Shown: positions 1-9,539 of the stretch, one piece after another
How the letters are laid out: every line of letters begins with the position of its first letter
Position numbering within the stretch: the stretch's first letter is position 1
Notes under the pieces: generated by a model
The model's database searches: none
What the model was told of the DNA's origin: nothing
What the model saw: only the letters and a program-made list of their open reading frames with translations
Translations under genes and position numbers: made by a program
Assembly (NCBI GenBank): GCA_000151295.1
Contig: GG745330.1
Span: 1,057,327-1,121,326 of the forward strand
From: Allomyces macrogynus ATCC 38327
Lineage: Eukaryota; Blastocladiomycota; Blastocladiomycetes; Blastocladiales; Blastocladiaceae
Reading direction: 5' to 3'
DNA length: 64,000 nt

Positions 1-59
1 AGCAACAGCAATCGCGCCGCTCGAGCGGTCGAACACTGACAACCGCACCACGAACCACT

Positions 60-865
60 ATGACCACTACCGCCGCTATCAAGGCCCGCGCGACAATGGC
101 TGGCATATCGACCCGCACTGTCGTGCTCGCGCTGTTTGTCGCGCTCCTCGCCGTGACGGCCGCAGCCGCCGTCGTGTGCGTGCCACTCACGCGCCGCCAA
201 GCTCCATCACCGCCTCCACCCCCGCCGGGCGTCGACCCGTTCCCGCCGAACGTGGCCAACCTGACAGCGTGGCAGGCCGTGTCGAGCAACCCGTCGCTGA
301 GCAACTTCACGTCGCTGGTCACGGCCAAGGCGCCGCAGGTCGTGACGGCGCTGAACACGACGGGCGCGGCCAATGTGACCGTGTTTGCGCCGACCAACGC
401 CGGTGCGTATTTTCTCTATTGGCGGGCCGCGCGCGCACGCGTCGCGCCGAGTGCGATCTGCGACTGACGACCGTCTTCTCTGCACTCTCCACTCGCTTCT
501 GCAAAAAAGCGTTCGCGCCGTTGGTCAACCAGTCGCTGTTCCAGTACCTGTCCAACAACCCCAACTACTCGGGCGTGCTTGCGCAGCTGCTGAGCTATCA
601 CGCGCACAACGGGTCGGCGATATACACGGCCGACGTGCCGGCGAACCGCAACATTACGGAAAGAACGCTCTCGCCCTTCTTCAATGTCACGCTCTCGCGC
701 GGTACGGCGCGCCCGCTGTGGGCCGCGCAGACGGCCAATGTCACGACGGTCTGGGTCAACGACGCGGCCATCATCTACGGCGACACGGCGGTGCGGGACG
801 GCGTAGTGCACATCATTGACCGCGTGCTCTCGCCGACGTGGTACCTGCCGCCGCGGTCGGCGTGA
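60..865 (+). CDS. Secreted FAS1 (fasciclin) domain protein, two exons
   Basis: Exons 60..402 and 510..865 give 232 residues. The intron starts gtgcgt and ends in aaaaaag, and joining restores the FAS1 H1 motif TVFAPTNAAFAPL. The first about 40 residues form a hydrophobic signal peptide or anchor (an alternative ATG lies at 96), followed by a Pro-rich linker and one FAS1 domain ending VRDGVVHIIDRVL. Several N-x-T/S sequons fit an extracellular or cell-wall adhesion protein, as is usual for the family. The last 24 nt, including the stop, lie inside the left arm of the large palindrome, so the repeat boundary cuts the end of this gene. The domain call is firm; the biological role is not known. 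Confidence 0.85.
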
Positions 866-1154
866 TCTGGCCGGTCGATGGAGTTCGCTGCAGGGGATCC
901 GCGGCACGTGCGCCGCGATCTTGCGCGCGGTTGGTGTCGCGTCGCGGCCGTGCCGTGTCATTTCGTGTCGTTCGTGCAGCCGTGTTGTGTTGGAGACGCT
1001 GAGTTTGTATTTGTTGGACGCCTGGATGGTGGGTGTTGTTGTTGGTCGCTGAAAGTCTTGGTATTCCGCTGGCCATGATTGTCTCTGATTGTAACGCTTC
1101 CATGTTTTGAGCCATCCGCTGAATCTGAATTGCTGTTCTGTTTTCTCGGCTTGC

Positions 1155-1182
<28 letters not shown>
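1155..1182. repeat. CT microsatellite (left arm)
   Basis: About 14 CT units. The mirrored GA tract in the right arm has exactly the same length, which is unusual for such a mutable repeat and argues that the two arms are very recently copied, homogenised, or an assembly artefact. Confidence 0.95.
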
Positions 1183-1185
<3 letters not shown>

Positions 1186-2018
1186 CCTGTCTGCGTGCGC
1201 GTGCCTGCGCATCAAATTCATCATCACCACGCCCGGTCTTCATCTTGTGGGCGCGCCCGCCATTTTGACGGCAACGGCGATGGTCTCGCGGCCGTTCTCG
1301 CGTCGATCCACGACCGAAGCAGAGAAATCGACATGGCCGACTGCGCGGCGCAGTTGCGGTCGCGGTCGCGGTCGCGGTCGATAGAGCGGGTGGGGGTAGG
1401 GCCGTTGGTGGTCGATGCGGTCGTCATTGCGGCACAAGTCGCACGATGCGGGATGTGGGCCAACCGATCAGAGCGAGATGGTGGTGACTTTGACGGTTTA
1501 TATCTCCCTCGGAAACGGCCGCTGTTCATTCCCACAACAGGCAGAAAATGAAGAGGACGCGGTCCTCTGCAACCCCCTTTCCGCTGCCCGCGGTTCCGTG
1601 GCGGCGGCCGACTTTGATTGACCCACGAGAGCGCCGGTTCACGCCGCACGCCGCACGCCGCACGCTTGCGCATTTCCGCCCCGCGCGTGCGGTGGGCAGT
1701 TCAACCTGGCCAAAAGCAGATAATTGCATTTGCTGCCGGTTACGATCATCTTTTGTAGCGGGAGGTGATGGTGGTTGGTAACTTGGTTATAGTGCTGGAC
1801 GTTGTGGCCGGGTGGCCTCCACTTTCGGAGGTGGATTGGCGGGAATCCGGTGCTGACCGAATCCAGGGGGTAAATAGCTCGGGCGCTGGATTGAGAAGAT
1901 CGGGTCCAGGCCGAAGCCCCCCACCCTGCTCCCGCCCCTTTCGGCTTCGGAGCCGCTTCGGAATCCTGCAGACTCTCAGAGCGCTGAGCAAACACAGACA
2001 AGCAAAACAAAAAGGTAG

Positions 2019-2090
2019 TAGCGTCTGTAGGTTTCGATCCTACGACCTCAGGGTTATGAGCCCTGCGCGCTTCCTCTGCGCCAAGACGCT
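2019..2090 (-). tRNA. Initiator tRNA-Met (CAT), left copy
   Basis: On the minus strand the 7-bp acceptor stem AGCGTCT/AGACGCT closes with an A1:U72 pair. The anticodon arm is CAGGG-CTCATAA-CCCTG with three consecutive G:C pairs, and the T-arm is GTAGG-ATCGAAA-CCTAC. The A1:U72 pair, the GGG/CCC anticodon stem and the AUCGAAA T-loop (A54, not T54) are hallmarks of eukaryotic initiator tRNA. There is no intron. An identical mirrored copy lies at 5855-5926. Confidence 0.92.
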
Positions 2091-2099
2091 CGAATCGGG

Positions 2100-2120
2100 T
2101 TAGGGTTTAGATTAGGGTTT
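2100..2120. repeat. Interstitial telomere-like repeat (left arm)
   Basis: Two TTAGGGTTT units separated by AGA, directly beside the initiator tRNA gene. The unit matches the TTAGGG telomere repeat of most fungi. It is too short to be a telomere and may be a Tbf1/TRF-type binding site or a repair scar. Confidence 0.7.
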
Positions 2121-2716
2121 CCAAGTCCCGCATTCCCGTTGCAAGGGGCGAGCGCTCACGCTATATAAACAGGTCGTCGCATCTCCTGCACTCGAGGTCA
2201 TATTCTGCTGCTGATTGGTGCCAACCGCCTCTCATATCCGCTCACCAGCGGTGCAGAGCACAAGAGGAGTCGCTCAAGCTGTGCGTGGGCCAGCACGTCA
2301 TCTAAGTTGCAATTCAAGAGTGGTGCATCTGCTCCATCCAGCCACCCACCACACACTCACTGCTCACACCAACACTGACTGTTTGATGATACCTGAGGCT
2401 GTCAATGTTGGCAAAGTGGGCCAGCAGTGCGATCAGATCAAGGGGTACTTGATGCTCGTGCTTTGCAAGGACTGATGGAAAATGGACACAAAGTTGGCCC
2501 AAGAGCAGAAGAGTTGAGTGAACAGCTGATGAAATAGCTGAACAAGCTGGTGCAAGGAAACATGACATGGCAACTGCCATGATTGTGATCATTTATATAG
2601 AGTCCACATCTCTGTGCTCATGTCAACATCAGTGCCATGGGAAGGAGACAAGACAGGTTTCTAAGTCAACCCTTTGCGCCATGGCAGTGTGAGCATGGTG
2701 TGGAGACCAAGGTTCC

Positions 2717-2791
2717 GTCAGCGTGGTGTAGTCGGTTTATCACACCTGTCTCACACACAGGAGGTCCCCAGTTCGAACCTGGGCGCTGACA
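2717..2791 (+). tRNA. tRNA-Val (CAC), left copy
   Basis: The acceptor stem GTCAGCG/CGCTGAC is followed by discriminator A. The anticodon arm is CCTGT-CTCACAC-ACAGG (anticodon CAC) and the T-arm is CCCAG-TTCGAAC-CTGGG. There is no intron. It points away from the initiator tRNA, which lies about 630 bp upstream on the other strand. An exact mirror copy is at 5154-5228. Confidence 0.92.
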
Positions 2792-3453
2792 TCATCGAGC
2801 GGGTGCTCCTTGAACCACCTTTTTGCTTTTTCCATCTCACATGTCCCTGTTTGTGCAACAGATTTTACAACATGAGGGTTGGCATGAGAGTTGACATAAG
2901 AGTTGGCATGAGTTGGACTGGAAATGGACATGAGTGTTGACATGAAGAAATCACTGGCAGGCTTCCATTTGGTGGACCAAATAATTTTCCACACATGCTT
3001 TGTTGATTCCTTGACCAATCATCATGCTCAGCAGCCTGTGCTCTGGGCATGCTGCTGATTTGCCATGTCAGTCATGGCTGTGAGCACATGCCATGTGGCA
3101 GATCTGGACATTAGTGAAGAATGTGTGTGCACACCTGTATTTGATCACAGTGTGATCATTGTGGAGACAACACTGTCTGCTTTGTTTGACCACGATTTTG
3201 TGCATGTGCTGCAGCACAATGTGGGGCACATACTGGCTTTGGAGGTAGCAAATGACAAACAGGTGAAGAGGGGTGGAGGATGGCTAGGGTGGAGCAGCAG
3301 TAGATTGAGTGTGCCAACAAAGCTAGCAATATCAAACCATGGCAGGGGCACAGCAACATGTGTGACATGATCCAAAGCCTCCAGGAACATTGACTATCCT
3401 GCTCCACCTTGTTGCTTGTGCAAGTCATCAAAAAGCCATCCACAAAACACAAA

Positions 3454-4491
3454 ATGAAACACCAAAGGAAGATGAGACGCCAAGATGAGGTGAGAAAGGA
3501 CACAAAGAAAGCAAAATGCTGGCAGTTACACAGCAGCCAGCTTAATGGCGTCACTGATCCACTGTCAGGGCAGTCCACCCACAATAAATAGTAGCCATTG
3601 CATGCTACTTCCAGGGGAAATGCCCAGTTCCCTAGTCCACTGGGGCCAAGAAATGGCCATGGCCAGGTCACAGCCAGAGTGTCCCAGACTGCTATCACAG
3701 TTGTGGGAGTAGGATTGATGCATGCCATCAATGTGAACCAATTACACTTTGTTTGTTTTGAATTGGAGGTGATTTGAAGGCGTTGATTGATTTGGAGTGA
3801 GCAGACCTTGATCTCAATGGTGCAAGTGACATGGTGGTGGCACTGTCTGAACAACTGTGATCATGTCACTCCCTGAGCACCCTGCTTAGTTGCTCCCAAC
3901 TTTGAGGGCAAGCTGGTGCTCAAGAATGATGGGATGCACATTGAGGACACACACATTCTGTTCATTTACAGAAAGAACAAGGATGGTTACTAGTTGGGGC
4001 AGCGCCTGTGTGACCAGGTTTCCTGCCAAAGCTCTGCCCAGAACTCAGCCATGGGTCATTTTGCTTGGCCTCCACATTGTTCTTTTTGACATGGTTGTGC
4101 AACAATCATTCTTTCCTAGTCATCAAACACTTGTGGAGCACTAAATGGTTTGTGCACAAGCACTGAGTACTTGTACAGTGTGCTGGTCAAGACAGTTCTG
4201 TGCATGCTCACAAGTGTGTCAGTTGGCAAGAAATGGAACTTTTCTGCAAGATGAAGTGGCACAAGTCGATTTACAACATGCCCCCCCCCCCCCCCCCCAT
4301 TCTGCTTTGCCATTGTGCTTGATCCTATCAGGCAGATCCTTGTTGTCACTGTCACAGTCTTGCTCACTTGCAACTGGATCTTGTTCAAAGCGCACAAAGC
4401 GCTGCCAGTTCTTCAATTTTTTGCACAATAGCTTGGCTTGTTTCAGTGCACAGATCCTGCACATGCACAGCAGCTGGTTGTAGCACTTGTG
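3454..4491. other. Unique spacer at the centre of the palindrome
   Basis: 1,038 bp separate the two arms. The spacer is AT-richer than the gene-rich DNA around the palindrome and contains an 18-nt C run. Reading frames of 230 codons (minus, 3156-3854, crossing the arm boundary) and about 85 codons (plus, near 3890) exist but start or end arbitrarily and match nothing I recognise. Around 3898-3990 a plus frame reads as protein-like (for example EGKLVLKNDGMHIEDTHILF) before a stop, which could be decayed transposon coding sequence. That reading is speculative. Confidence 0.7.
4281..4298. repeat. C18 homopolymer
   Basis: Eighteen consecutive C residues on the plus strand within the palindrome spacer. 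The complementary G run could form a G-quadruplex. The length is likely to be uncertain in sequencing. Confidence 0.9.
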
Positions 4492-5153
4492 TTTGTGTTT
4501 TGTGGATGGCTTTTTGATGACTTGCACAAGCAACAAGGTGGAGCAGGATAGTCAATGTTCCTGGAGGCTTTGGATCATGTCACACATGTTGCTGTGCCCC
4601 TGCCATGGTTTGATATTGCTAGCTTTGTTGGCACACTCAATCTACTGCTGCTCCACCCTAGCCATCCTCCACCCCTCTTCACCTGTTTGTCATTTGCTAC
4701 CTCCAAAGCCAGTATGTGCCCCACATTGTGCTGCAGCACATGCACAAAATCGTGGTCAAACAAAGCAGACAGTGTTGTCTCCACAATGATCACACTGTGA
4801 TCAAATACAGGTGTGCACACACATTCTTCACTAATGTCCAGATCTGCCACATGGCATGTGCTCACAGCCATGACTGACATGGCAAATCAGCAGCATGCCC
4901 AGAGCACAGGCTGCTGAGCATGATGATTGGTCAAGGAATCAACAAAGCATGTGTGGAAAATTATTTGGTCCACCAAATGGAAGCCTGCCAGTGATTTCTT
5001 CATGTCAACACTCATGTCCATTTCCAGTCCAACTCATGCCAACTCTTATGTCAACTCTCATGCCAACCCTCATGTTGTAAAATCTGTTGCACAAACAGGG
5101 ACATGTGAGATGGAAAAAGCAAAAAGGTGGTTCAAGGAGCACCCGCTCGATGA

Positions 5154-5228
5154 TGTCAGCGCCCAGGTTCGAACTGGGGACCTCCTGTGTGTGAGACAGG
5201 TGTGATAAACCGACTACACCACGCTGAC
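5154..5228 (-). tRNA. tRNA-Val (CAC), right copy
   Basis: Mirror image of the tRNA gene at 2717-2791, with the same acceptor, anticodon and T arms. Its flanks are also identical over the full arm. Confidence 0.92.
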
Positions 5229-5824
5229 GGAACCTTGGTCTCCACACCATGCTCACACTGCCATGGCGCAAAGGGTTGACTTAGAAACCTGTCTTGTCTC
5301 CTTCCCATGGCACTGATGTTGACATGAGCACAGAGATGTGGACTCTATATAAATGATCACAATCATGGCAGTTGCCATGTCATGTTTCCTTGCACCAGCT
5401 TGTTCAGCTATTTCATCAGCTGTTCACTCAACTCTTCTGCTCTTGGGCCAACTTTGTGTCCATTTTCCATCAGTCCTTGCAAAGCACGAGCATCAAGTAC
5501 CCCTTGATCTGATCGCACTGCTGGCCCACTTTGCCAACATTGACAGCCTCAGGTATCATCAAACAGTCAGTGTTGGTGTGAGCAGTGAGTGTGTGGTGGG
5601 TGGCTGGATGGAGCAGATGCACCACTCTTGAATTGCAACTTAGATGACGTGCTGGCCCACGCACAGCTTGAGCGACTCCTCTTGTGCTCTGCACCGCTGG
5701 TGAGCGGATATGAGAGGCGGTTGGCACCAATCAGCAGCAGAATATGACCTCGAGTGCAGGAGATGCGACGACCTGTTTATATAGCGTGAGCGCTCGCCCC
5801 TTGCAACGGGAATGCGGGACTTGG

Positions 5825-5845
5825 AAACCCTAATCTAAACCCTAA
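5825..5845. repeat. Interstitial telomere-like repeat (right arm)
   Basis: Reverse-complement copy (AAACCCTAA type) of the 2100-2120 cluster, next to the second initiator tRNA gene. Confidence 0.7.
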
Positions 5846-5854
5846 CCCGATTCG

Positions 5855-5926
5855 AGCGTCTTGGCGCAGAGGAAGCGCGCAGGGCTCATAACCCTGAGGT
5901 CGTAGGATCGAAACCTACAGACGCTA
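5855..5926 (+). tRNA. Initiator tRNA-Met (CAT), right copy
   Basis: Identical mirrored copy of 2019-2090, with A1:U72, three G:C pairs in the anticodon stem and the AUCGAAA T-loop. Confidence 0.92.
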
Positions 5927-6759
5927 CTACCTTTTTGTTTTGCTTGTCTGTGTTTGCTCAGCGCTCTGAGAGTCTGCAGGATTCCGAAGCGGCTCCGAAG
6001 CCGAAAGGGGCGGGAGCAGGGTGGGGGGCTTCGGCCTGGACCCGATCTTCTCAATCCAGCGCCCGAGCTATTTACCCCCTGGATTCGGTCAGCACCGGAT
6101 TCCCGCCAATCCACCTCCGAAAGTGGAGGCCACCCGGCCACAACGTCCAGCACTATAACCAAGTTACCAACCACCATCACCTCCCGCTACAAAAGATGAT
6201 CGTAACCGGCAGCAAATGCAATTATCTGCTTTTGGCCAGGTTGAACTGCCCACCGCACGCGCGGGGCGGAAATGCGCAAGCGTGCGGCGTGCGGCGTGCG
6301 GCGTGAACCGGCGCTCTCGTGGGTCAATCAAAGTCGGCCGCCGCCACGGAACCGCGGGCAGCGGAAAGGGGGTTGCAGAGGACCGCGTCCTCTTCATTTT
6401 CTGCCTGTTGTGGGAATGAACAGCGGCCGTTTCCGAGGGAGATATAAACCGTCAAAGTCACCACCATCTCGCTCTGATCGGTTGGCCCACATCCCGCATC
6501 GTGCGACTTGTGCCGCAATGACGACCGCATCGACCACCAACGGCCCTACCCCCACCCGCTCTATCGACCGCGACCGCGACCGCGACCGCAACTGCGCCGC
6601 GCAGTCGGCCATGTCGATTTCTCTGCTTCGGTCGTGGATCGACGCGAGAACGGCCGCGAGACCATCGCCGTTGCCGTCAAAATGGCGGGCGCGCCCACAA
6701 GATGAAGACCGGGCGTGGTGATGATGAATTTGATGCGCAGGCACGCGCACGCAGACAGG

Positions 6760-6762
<3 letters not shown>

Positions 6763-6790
<28 letters not shown>
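6763..6790. repeat. GA microsatellite (right arm mirror)
   Basis: Reverse-complement counterpart of the CT tract at 1155-1182, equal in length. Confidence 0.95.
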
Positions 6791-7103
6791 GCAAGCCGAG
6801 AAAACAGAACAGCAATTCAGATTCAGCGGATGGCTCAAAACATGGAAGCGTTACAATCAGAGACAATCATGGCCAGCGGAATACCAAGACTTTCAGCGAC
6901 CAACAACAACACCCACCATCCAGGCGTCCAACAAATACAAACTCAGCGTCTCCAACACAACACGGCTGCACGAACGACACGAAATGACACGGCACGGCCG
7001 CGACGCGACACCAACCGCGCGCAAGATCGCGGCGCACGTGCCGCGGATCCCCTGCAGCGAACTCCATCGACCGGCCAGATCACGCCGACCGCGGCGGCAG
7101 GTA

Positions 7104-7129
7104 GACGTGAAGTTGCTCAGCGACAGGTT
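7104..7129 (-). pseudogene. 26-bp scrap of the FAS1 gene at the right palindrome edge
   Basis: Read on the minus strand, this stretch matches FAS1 exon 1 around 288-313 (coding for the residues SLSNFTS) with one mismatch in 26 nt. It is joined directly to the copy of the gene's last codons (7081-7103). The segment 314-841 is therefore missing from the right side, as if the copied FAS1 gene had lost about 528 bp. Sequence beyond 7130 no longer resembles the gene. Confidence 0.6.
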
Positions 7130-7276
7130 TACTCCTTTGACGGTTCTCTTGAGAACGGACTCAAGCAGCGCAACAATCAATAAAGCTATCAGTGTTCAAT
7201 TCGCGTCCTCAAATCTCAAGGACCCGATCCCGCACCCAGAAAACTACCAGAACTCGTTCCACACAACGGCCCTTTC

Positions 7277-9539
7277 TCACTCAAAGCGATCGAACACGTT
7301 CGGCACAGCCTTACCCTTGAAATACTCAATCACCTCATTAGCCTTGGCCGCGACCGCCTCCTTGGTGATACCGAACTTGGCATACACGGCGTCAGGCGCG
7401 CGCGACGTGCCAAATGCACGCATCCCCACCACCGCGTGCGCGTACTGCCGCCACCCGATCGTGCCGAGCGCCTCGACCGCGACGACGGGCACCCCTGGAG
7501 TCAGCACGCTCTCATGGTACGTGCGCGGCTGCGTATCAAACAGTTTTCACGACGGCATCGACACGACGCGCACGGCGAACTCGTCGAGGAGTGCGGCCGC
7601 TTCGATGGCCAGTGCGACTTCGGTGCCCGTGGCCACCAAAGCCACGGCCGGGTTCCCCACGTCTTGCAGGACGTACGCGCCGCGGCCCGTGCTCTCGGCC
7701 GACGACCCGGAGAGAACCGGCACGGCTTGACGCGACAATATCAGCGCGACCGGGATCGATGGCGCGTTGAGCGCGGCCCGGTACGCACCGACCACTTCGT
7801 TCCCATCGGCCGGCCGGAGCACCCACAAGTTTGGCGTCGCACGCAGGAGCGCAAGCGTCTCATCGGCCGGTGCGCGGGCCCGTCTTTGCCGAGCCCAATC
7901 GAGTCGTGGCTCAGCACGTACATGACGCGGTGGTGCGCGAGCGCTGCGAGCCGCACCGATGGGTACGCGTAGGTGATGAAGTTGAGAAACGTGGCGGCAA
8001 ACGGACGGACCAGACCGTGCGCGGCGAGCCCGTTGCAAATGGCCGCCATCCCGTGCTCGCGAACGCCGAACCGCACGTACCGACCTTCGTACGCGCCGTG
8101 CGCGTTGCCCGTCGCCTGGAAGCCGATTTGACGACGTCAGATCGGCCGACCCGCCCATCAGGTCCGGAATGAGGTCGCCTAAGATCCCGAGCACTTGGCC
8201 CGACCACTTGCGCGTCGCCGCCGGCGCGTCCTTGGTCGAAAACGTCGGCATCTTCTCGCGGATCCCGTCCGGCAACCTGCCCGCGGCACGCCGCTCAAAA
8301 TCGGCCGCCAAAAAGAGGTACTTGTTCTTATACTCTTCGAACGCGCGTTGCCAGTTGGCCTCGGCCTCCTGCCCGCGCGCGCGCACCGCCGCGTACAGTT
8401 CGCGAACCGTGTAGGACACGACAAATGCCGCGCCCGGGTCGAAGCCGAGTTGCTGCTTGACGCGCTTGACGTCGTCGACGCCCAGCGCCGACCCGTGCAC
8501 CTTGTCCGTCCCGGCCTTGCTTGACCCGAACCCGATCGTCGTCGTGACCTTGATCAGCGTCGGGCGGTCGGTTACGCGGTGCGCCTCGGCGAGCGCAGCG
8601 ACCAGCGCCGACTGGTCGATCGCGTCGCCGTGCGGGACGGAGAGCGTGTGCCACCCGAAGGCCTCGACGCGCTGGCAGACGTTTTCGGTGAACGCCTGTG
8701 CAAAAATGGCATTAAATGCCACGTCAGGACCCGACAGCGCGAGCACGCCCAAGAAAATACAGTAGCCGTACCAAGTCTGTCGTCCCGTCAATCTTGTTGT
8801 CGTCGTACAGCTCAATCAGCTTGCCCAGCTTCCAGTGGCCCGCGAGCGACATGGCCTCTGCGCTCACGCCCTCCTGCAGGCAACCGTCGCCCAGGATCAC
8901 GTATGTGTAGTGGTCAACGATCTTGGGCGCGTCGGGCCGGTTGAACGTCGCGGCCAAGTGCGCCTCGGCCATGGCGAGACCAACGGCGTTCGCGATCCCT
9001 TGCCCGAGCGGGCCCGCTATCAGCTCAACGACGGGCGTCATGTGCGATTCGGGGTGCCCTGGGGTCCTAGAAACGCGTTCGGGGGGCCAGCTTGGCAGTC
9101 GCGAGAGGTAACGCGCTGCTGGGTGAAATGTACTTGGAGTCGAGCTGCCGGTACCGCTTCAGGTCGTCCAGCGCAATGTCGTACCCGAGCAAGTGCAGCA
9201 GAATGTACTGCAGGCAGCACGCGTGCCCATTCTACAGGAGGAACCGGTCGCGGTCGGCCTACAATCGCGGCAGTGAGTCGGGCGCTGATCGCCGCATTGA
9301 TCACGCTCGGTCGGCTGGGCACCAACATGCACCCATCTCGGGTTGCTCGGGTTCGCGCGCAAGAACCGCGTGAGAGCGTGTGCCCGGCCGGCGCAAGCCC
9401 CATGGGCGCGCCCGGATGGCCCGGCGGTCTGCACCATGTCGGCTGCCAGACACCGGATCGTGTTGATGACCGTCGCGTCGGCGGGCCTGAAGGGCATGCC
9501 GGGACCGCGCGAAGCGGGCGTGGATGCAGATTCGGTCAT
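7277..9539 (-). pseudogene. Broken transketolase gene
   Basis: Minus-strand segments spell a eukaryotic transketolase in order: start at 9539; thiamine-diphosphate domain with [35 protein letters not shown] and [10 protein letters not shown]; middle domain with VREHGMAAICNGLAAHG; C-terminal domain with a stop at 7277. Three plausible introns are visible near 9212-9315, 9068-9137 and 8700-8769. Lesions: TAG replaces the Ser codon of the conserved LSNGHA motif at 9232-9234; TGA replaces Trp in the SMPSWELF-type motif at 7547-7549; frame changes occur near 9420, 9374 and 7866; near 8122 a frame change comes with loss of roughly ten residues after SADLTSSN. Transketolase is a core pentose-phosphate enzyme, so a functional copy should exist elsewhere. 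Poor sequence quality is an alternative for the frameshifts, less so for the nonsense codons. Confidence 0.85.

Follow-up and report, generated by a model that had tools for sequence, protein, structure and literature searches.

A perfect palindrome with tRNA genes in Allomyces macrogynus and its possible upkeep by arm-to-arm copying

How can a palindrome with arms of 2.6 kb come to carry arms without a single difference? The question is raised by a stretch of 64,000 nucleotides from the blastocladiomycete fungus Allomyces macrogynus ATCC 38327 (contig C73, positions 1057327-1121326, in an assembly of 54 Mb and 75 contigs), which is called the window throughout; contigs and examined loci are cited by our handles, C and L. 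The palindrome lies between a fasciclin (FAS1) gene and a transketolase gene, and each of its arms holds transfer RNA (tRNA) genes. Our answer, which we regard as fairly probable, is that a tRNA-Met gene had an old inverted repeat next to it, which was enlarged, and its arms kept identical, by copying from arm to arm. Copying is favoured because the inner part of the left arm looks copied, because inverted FAS1 pieces occur in both of two duplicate loci, and because a further pair of loci (C31 and C20) is more alike within than between loci.

Geometry of the palindrome

The sequence-only reading that drew attention to this locus had proposed that positions x and 7945-x are complementary, and the mirror proved exact from 842/7103 to 3453/4492, with no mismatches and no gaps. 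By direct check each arm measures 2,612 bp and is 100% complementary to the other, and a repeat search and BLAST return the same pair. Complementarity breaks off immediately at the outer and inner ends of both arms. The spacer, put earlier at about 1 kb, is 1,038 bp long, and the equal microsatellite lengths that had been pointed out are also there, with (CT)14.5 at 1155-1183 and (GA)14.5 at 6762-6790. At 4281-4298 the spacer contains 18 consecutive C, a likely site of length error.

842..3453, plus strand: left arm; its outer end is ancestral and runs on from FAS1, its inner part is probably copied from the right arm
4492..7103, minus strand: right arm, the perfect reverse complement of the left; its inner end runs into a spacer repeat
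3454..4491, no strand: spacer, composed of decayed dispersed repeats, with an observed/expected (o/e) CpG ratio of 0.12

A perfect match of 2.6 kb is far out of the reach of chance. As a control, inverted matches with E<=1e-4 were sought after pairs with arms 200 bases apart or less had been dropped, and none was found in 10 overlapping 10-kb tiles of the window between 9 and 64 kb. The same control in chosen loci was positive in 2 of 10, namely the duplicate of this locus on C75 (L018) itself and L027 with old inverted pairs. The absence of differences over 2,612 bp bounds arm-to-arm divergence below 0.12% (95% bound); divergence between C73 and C75 in the aligned arm parts is 11-19% of ungapped columns.

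Polarity of the junctions

The two inner junctions differ in a way that tells the arms apart. Three copies of a dispersed repeat, on C62 (L016), C75 (L017) and C57 (L028), cross the right inner junction (4491/4492) unbroken, matching 4293-4726. The left inner junction (3453/3454) is crossed by none of the at least 37 genome matches listed for 2800-5150, and matches at that junction stop at 3447 or 3453. Therefore the spacer runs on into the right arm, whereas the left arm has been joined to it; judged from these breakpoints, the inner part of the left arm appears to have been copied from the right.

The outer edges show the reverse polarity, as the C75 duplicate is continuous across position 842 (L018 3346-4427 with window 44-1103). 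Beyond the right arm lies a FAS1 scrap that the sequence-only reading had noticed, and it is real. Since these 26 bases of inverted FAS1 follow directly on the right arm, the outermost right arm corresponds to the inverted 3' flank of FAS1, and the scrap implies that the inverted copy formerly extended further into the gene. The genes in the arms and flanks, among them four tRNA genes (one tRNA-Met and one tRNA-Val per arm), are as follows.

60..865, plus strand: FAS1 (fasciclin) gene containing one or more introns; stop at 863-865, the last codons inside the left arm
2018..2090, minus strand: tRNA-Met (CAT), left arm; ARAGORN, and Rfam with 64.8 bits
2717..2791, plus strand: tRNA-Val (CAC), left arm; ARAGORN, and Rfam with 62.2 bits
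5154..5228, minus strand: tRNA-Val (CAC), right arm; ARAGORN and Rfam
5855..5927, plus strand: tRNA-Met (CAT), right arm; ARAGORN and Rfam; orientation retained in the C75 duplicate
7104..7129, minus strand: inverted FAS1 scrap adjoining the right arm, the reverse complement of 288-313 at 25 of 26 bases
7276..9000, minus strand: right flank with the transketolase gene, collinear with C75 from 7276; Pfam PF02779 for 7547-8251, from a scan of part of the gene

On FAS1, Pfam PF02469 scores above its cut-off for 476-862 and below it for 60-467.

A collinear duplicate without the palindrome

Allomyces is polyploid, and C73 and C75 carry collinear duplicates whose compared pieces are 79-82% alike. 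The window has a PTC7-like phosphatase with 93% likeness to one from A. arbusculus and 91% to AMAG_00714, from A. macrogynus ATCC 38327; searched against the present assembly, AMAG_00714 is 99-100% alike on C75 and 94% alike to the window copy on C73. Phosphatase and FAS1 are about 34 kb apart on C73 and about 32 kb apart on C75.

The order on C75 is FAS1, the FAS1 3' flank, one tRNA-Met in the orientation of the right arm, and transketolase. There is no left arm and no palindrome in this duplicate, nor any 250-bp bin with a CpG ratio below 0.7. Between tRNA-Met and transketolase, C75 has another reverse-complemented FAS1 piece (39 columns, 95% to its own FAS1), which corresponds to window 510-548, a stretch absent from the inverted copy on C73. 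The scraps of C73 and C75 each outscore all of 1000 shuffles (0/1000 reach them). That both loci have a remnant of inverted FAS1 in the same position suggests an inverted copy already present before the duplicates split. No long inverted repeat was found in four other tRNA-Met pieces of about 3 kb each (L003, L004, L005 and L008), of which L003 contains the C75 scrap.

Further palindromes in the genome

The arms of a second palindrome, on C61 (L013), span 1,632 columns without mismatch; their one gap, of 3 bp, lies nine bases inside the outer edge. Each arm has one tRNA-Met, and the CpG ratio of the spacer is 0.09. The duplicate of this locus on C58 lacks the palindrome and has a single tRNA-Met stretch, in right-arm orientation. 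In both, an inverted scrap of the left neighbour gene lies beyond the tRNA (L013 7064-7119; 5259-5305 of the C58 stretch), with scores reached by none of 1000 shuffles each. The right outer edge of the C61 palindrome (7575) is crossed by repeat copies on C58, C73, C74, C75 and C68, and the mirror matches listed for four of these start at 2266-2271, which is 9-14 bases inside the left edge (2257); for this reason the left arm looks like the copy here as well.

On C31 (L043) lies a third palindrome, in which at least 3,362 bp of arm differ by a single mismatch (99.97% alike) and the spacer measures 2,939 bp; the palindrome extends past the stretch read, to arms of at least 3,399 bp. Its CpG content is ordinary and each arm has a tRNA-Trp. 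Pieces of its arms match C20 in two mirror pairs, 113216-113335 / 137184-137303 (159 bits, 89% each) and 113977-114367 / 136152-136542 (191 bits, 70% each), both with equal scores within the pair and a coordinate sum of 250519. The outer parts of the two C20 sides are unequally like C31, at 68% and 73-77%. Identity is thus 99.97% within C31 and 68-89% between the loci, while the inner C20 pieces are apparently identical to each other as far as match tables tell.

In the fourth, on C56 (L042), the arms are 100% alike over at least 1,602 bp (1,677 or more by another comparison), and CpG is scarce throughout; no tRNA gene was found in the stretch read. The genome therefore holds at least four near-perfect palindromes with arms of at least 1.6 kb (window, C61, C56 and C31), a number that is no rate, because loci were picked for matching arms or core. 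Inverted repeats of at least 100 bp were present in 4 of 20 loci examined (L013, L014, L015 and L024), one of the 20, L032, being only the window's own left side. L042 and L043 had been picked for equal-score inverted pairs in the match tables, and 2 of 2 were palindromes.

Several observations on tRNA genes stand beside these. In a whole-genome tRNA search that scored 63 of 794 candidates, equal-score genes on opposite strands mark candidate palindromes at G000:C22:185429/200679, C61:232663/266627 and C30:160286/160740. ARAGORN finds a tandem array of 33 tRNA genes in 10 kb on C5 (L029, G000:C5:51501-61500); the genes of this array repeat along that contig with a spacing of about 6.4 kb, and dispersed tRNA genes occur as well.

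The CpG-depleted core and its repeats

The centre of the window palindrome is set apart by its loss of CpG. In the six 500-bp bins of 2501-5500 the o/e ratio is 0.04-0.32, and in the other 122 bins of the window it is at least 0.70. The GC content of this core is 0.48. At 34 of the 37 CpGs of a related repeat copy on C62 (L016) the window has TpG or CpA, the pattern expected after deamination of methyl-cytosine. CpG has been lost from the core, probably by way of methylation and deamination.

2501..5500, no strand: CpG-depleted core, o/e 0.04-0.32 per 500 bp
3575..3863, plus strand: end segment of a CpG-poor repeat, single here and within the spacer but found in inverted pairs elsewhere
4293..4726, plus strand: dispersed repeat segment spanning the right inner junction

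The CpG-poor repeat has inverted ends on C58 (L014 4261-5996; 351 columns, 99.1%), on C34 (L015 3778-6133; 397 columns, 86.7%) and on C75 (L024 4267-5281; 153 columns, 98.0%), and is possibly an element of the foldback type. At G000:C27:138567-167668 the same repeat forms an equal-score inverted pair about 29 kb apart, with N runs beyond each copy, perhaps a larger palindrome.

Pfam DNA_methylase domains have 16 matches in the genome, with exon pieces counted separately. CpG-stripped repeat islands (window 2501-5500, L013, L035 and L042) thus coexist with C5-cytosine methyltransferase domains. They do so in a group, the early-diverging fungi including Blastocladiomycota, in which N6-methyladenine nearly replaces 5-methylcytosine by the account of a review (PMC13297926).

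Weighing of the explanations

The sequence-only reading had offered a recent inverted duplication, arm-to-arm conversion and an artefact side by side. Of these, copying within an older inverted structure is now favoured, and a simple foldback fits poorly. An assembly effect, whether a foldback join or two diverged arms merged into one consensus, is unlikely. Merging would yield perfect identity, but arms have been told apart elsewhere in this assembly, by the 3-bp gap in C61 and the one mismatch in C31, and the scraps in the duplicate loci are independent of any join in the window. A foldback join is also at odds with the junctions, all four of which differ, the right one passing through the FAS1 scrap into sequence collinear with C75. 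A single, very recent inverted duplication, arising where short inverted repeats allowed a template switch or break-induced replication, and with no continuing conversion, is a stronger competitor, albeit still a rather improbable one. It would account for the lack of any difference in 2,612 bp, for the one-way junction polarity and for the C75 duplicate being without a palindrome; what speaks against it is that C75 too has inverted FAS1 remnants, that the genome has at least four near-perfect palindromes, and that C31 and C20 differ so much more between loci than within.

Two further explanations are very improbable. A foldback transposon, with long terminal inverted repeats, is brought to mind by the CpG-poor repeat with inverted ends on C58, C34 and C75, whose end segment occurs in the spacer. 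However, that segment is single here and inside the spacer, the arms carry the end of a host gene and two tRNA genes, and the C31 palindrome has normal CpG. Among 44 listed arm matches (40 of 52 candidates scored) there are no dispersed copies with the same outer ends; besides the two arms and the C75 duplicate, the matches are short, being pieces of tRNA genes and parts of repeats. A GACGTG beside both ends, seen by eye and offset by one base, was considered as a target-site duplication and is explained by the inverted FAS1 scrap. Equally remote is a heterochromatin domain like a regional centromere, in which an AT-richer core is flanked by inverted repeats that contain tRNA genes. The core is CpG-stripped with a GC content of 0.48, and a tRNA-Met lies near the core edge here and in the C61 palindrome, but related CpG-poor repeats occur several per contig (C58, C64 and C75; contigs may not be whole chromosomes), genes adjoin both sides of the palindrome, and C31 again is normal in CpG.

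Several points weigh against the explanation by an old inverted repeat and continued copying. One recent copying event explains the window locus nearly as well. At 26-56 columns the inverted scraps are short. In the C58 duplicate, one more inverted match (3809-3880 against 6753-6824 of the joined stretch, E 3.8e-6) is similar in E to the scrap, lies on a different axis and fits no known palindrome, and there is also a short CpG-poor stretch left of the tRNA-Met of that duplicate. The contrast between C31 and C20 covers the arms, as compared through match tables, and among the listed matches none places the C31 spacer on C20. Moreover, GC is not raised in the window arms (0.595 in the outer and 0.491 in the inner part against 0.658 and 0.642 in the flanks) or in those of C31 (0.589 against 0.611 in the spacer), which matters because biased conversion might raise GC, although a rise is not required of all conversion.

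If arm-to-arm copying is nevertheless right, the locus may have taken the following course. Before C73 and C75 diverged, as both scraps suggest, the 3' part of FAS1 would have lain inverted between tRNA-Met and transketolase. The dispersed repeat in the centre then lost its CpGs, a loss seen directly and probably due to methylation and deamination. On C73, the old inverted flank of FAS1 would have primed repair synthesis that copied the right arm onto the left, through tRNA-Met, tRNA-Val and part of the decayed repeat, to end at 3453; the junctions display the polarity, and the repair pathway is our conjecture. Gene conversion between the arms may since have kept them alike, as C31 and C20 above all suggest, and on C75 the structure would have collapsed to one tRNA-Met and a FAS1 remnant. 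In general terms, an old inverted repeat could offer a broken end a partner, so that synthesis enlarges the palindrome, conversion homogenises it and deletion collapses it. A bolder proposal, possible but on balance doubtful, is that kilobase palindromes throughout the genome, many with tRNA genes, predate the genome duplication and are mended and enlarged by arm-to-arm copying, each arm able to regrow from its partner and to incorporate tRNA genes and decayed repeats, so that dispersed tRNA copies stay alike by way of palindromes as well as tandem arrays.

Comparison with known systems

Most known examples of palindromes kept by conversion come from sex chromosomes, together with a few loci in animals. 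Among the titles and abstracts listed in searches of the open-access literature we found none on nuclear palindromes in Allomyces. A fungal genome with collinear duplicates provides an internal comparison, in which the mirror is kept in one duplicate and apparently lost in the other and the scraps point to the prior state. If our explanation is true, the growth, homogenisation and collapse of palindromes, and the effect on tRNA genes, become testable in a simple lower fungus.

The short inverted repeats that seed larger inverted structures recall the inverted copy-number variants of origin-dependent inverted-repeat amplification (PMC10766186), which in that description starts from an inverted triplication, whereas none was found at the window locus. 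Template switching between inverted repeats is likewise described as making arms alike (PMC8604942). Among fungi, the centromeres of Candida tropicalis (PMC4741521) are described as having a core flanked by inverted repeats, whose arms resemble each other more closely in one centromere than across centromeres; unlike them, the related repeats of Allomyces are not one per contig, and a centromere is very improbable at the window locus. Several inverted duplications per genome, with gene conversion discussed, are presented for Folsomia candida and, as cited there, Adineta vaga (PMC5490193), but those are gene blocks in asexual animals, and in the Folsomia example synonymous divergence (Ks) is about 0.2, so the arms are not near-identical.

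Palindromes on the sex chromosomes of humans and apes (PMC3723533, PMC8981503) resemble ours in having arms more than 99% alike around a spacer, a likeness ascribed there to arm-to-arm conversion; they are sex-linked and their conversion is reported as GC-biased, whereas the Allomyces arms are without a GC rise. Closest are the long inverted repeats of Caenorhabditis, which the account in PMC1803023 treats as actively maintained, using the same contrast within and between loci. There as here, arms are near-identical within a locus and identity is far lower between orthologous or homologous loci, and the structure is lost in some lineages (C. briggsae there, C75 and C58 here). That account, however, concerns gene pairs across species, and the present one tRNA genes and a decayed repeat in duplicated segments of one genome, with the polarity of copying visible at the junctions. 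The Allomyces palindrome would thus extend palindromes kept by conversion to a new lineage; its arms carry tRNA genes, and the same genome supplies a duplicate with which to compare it.

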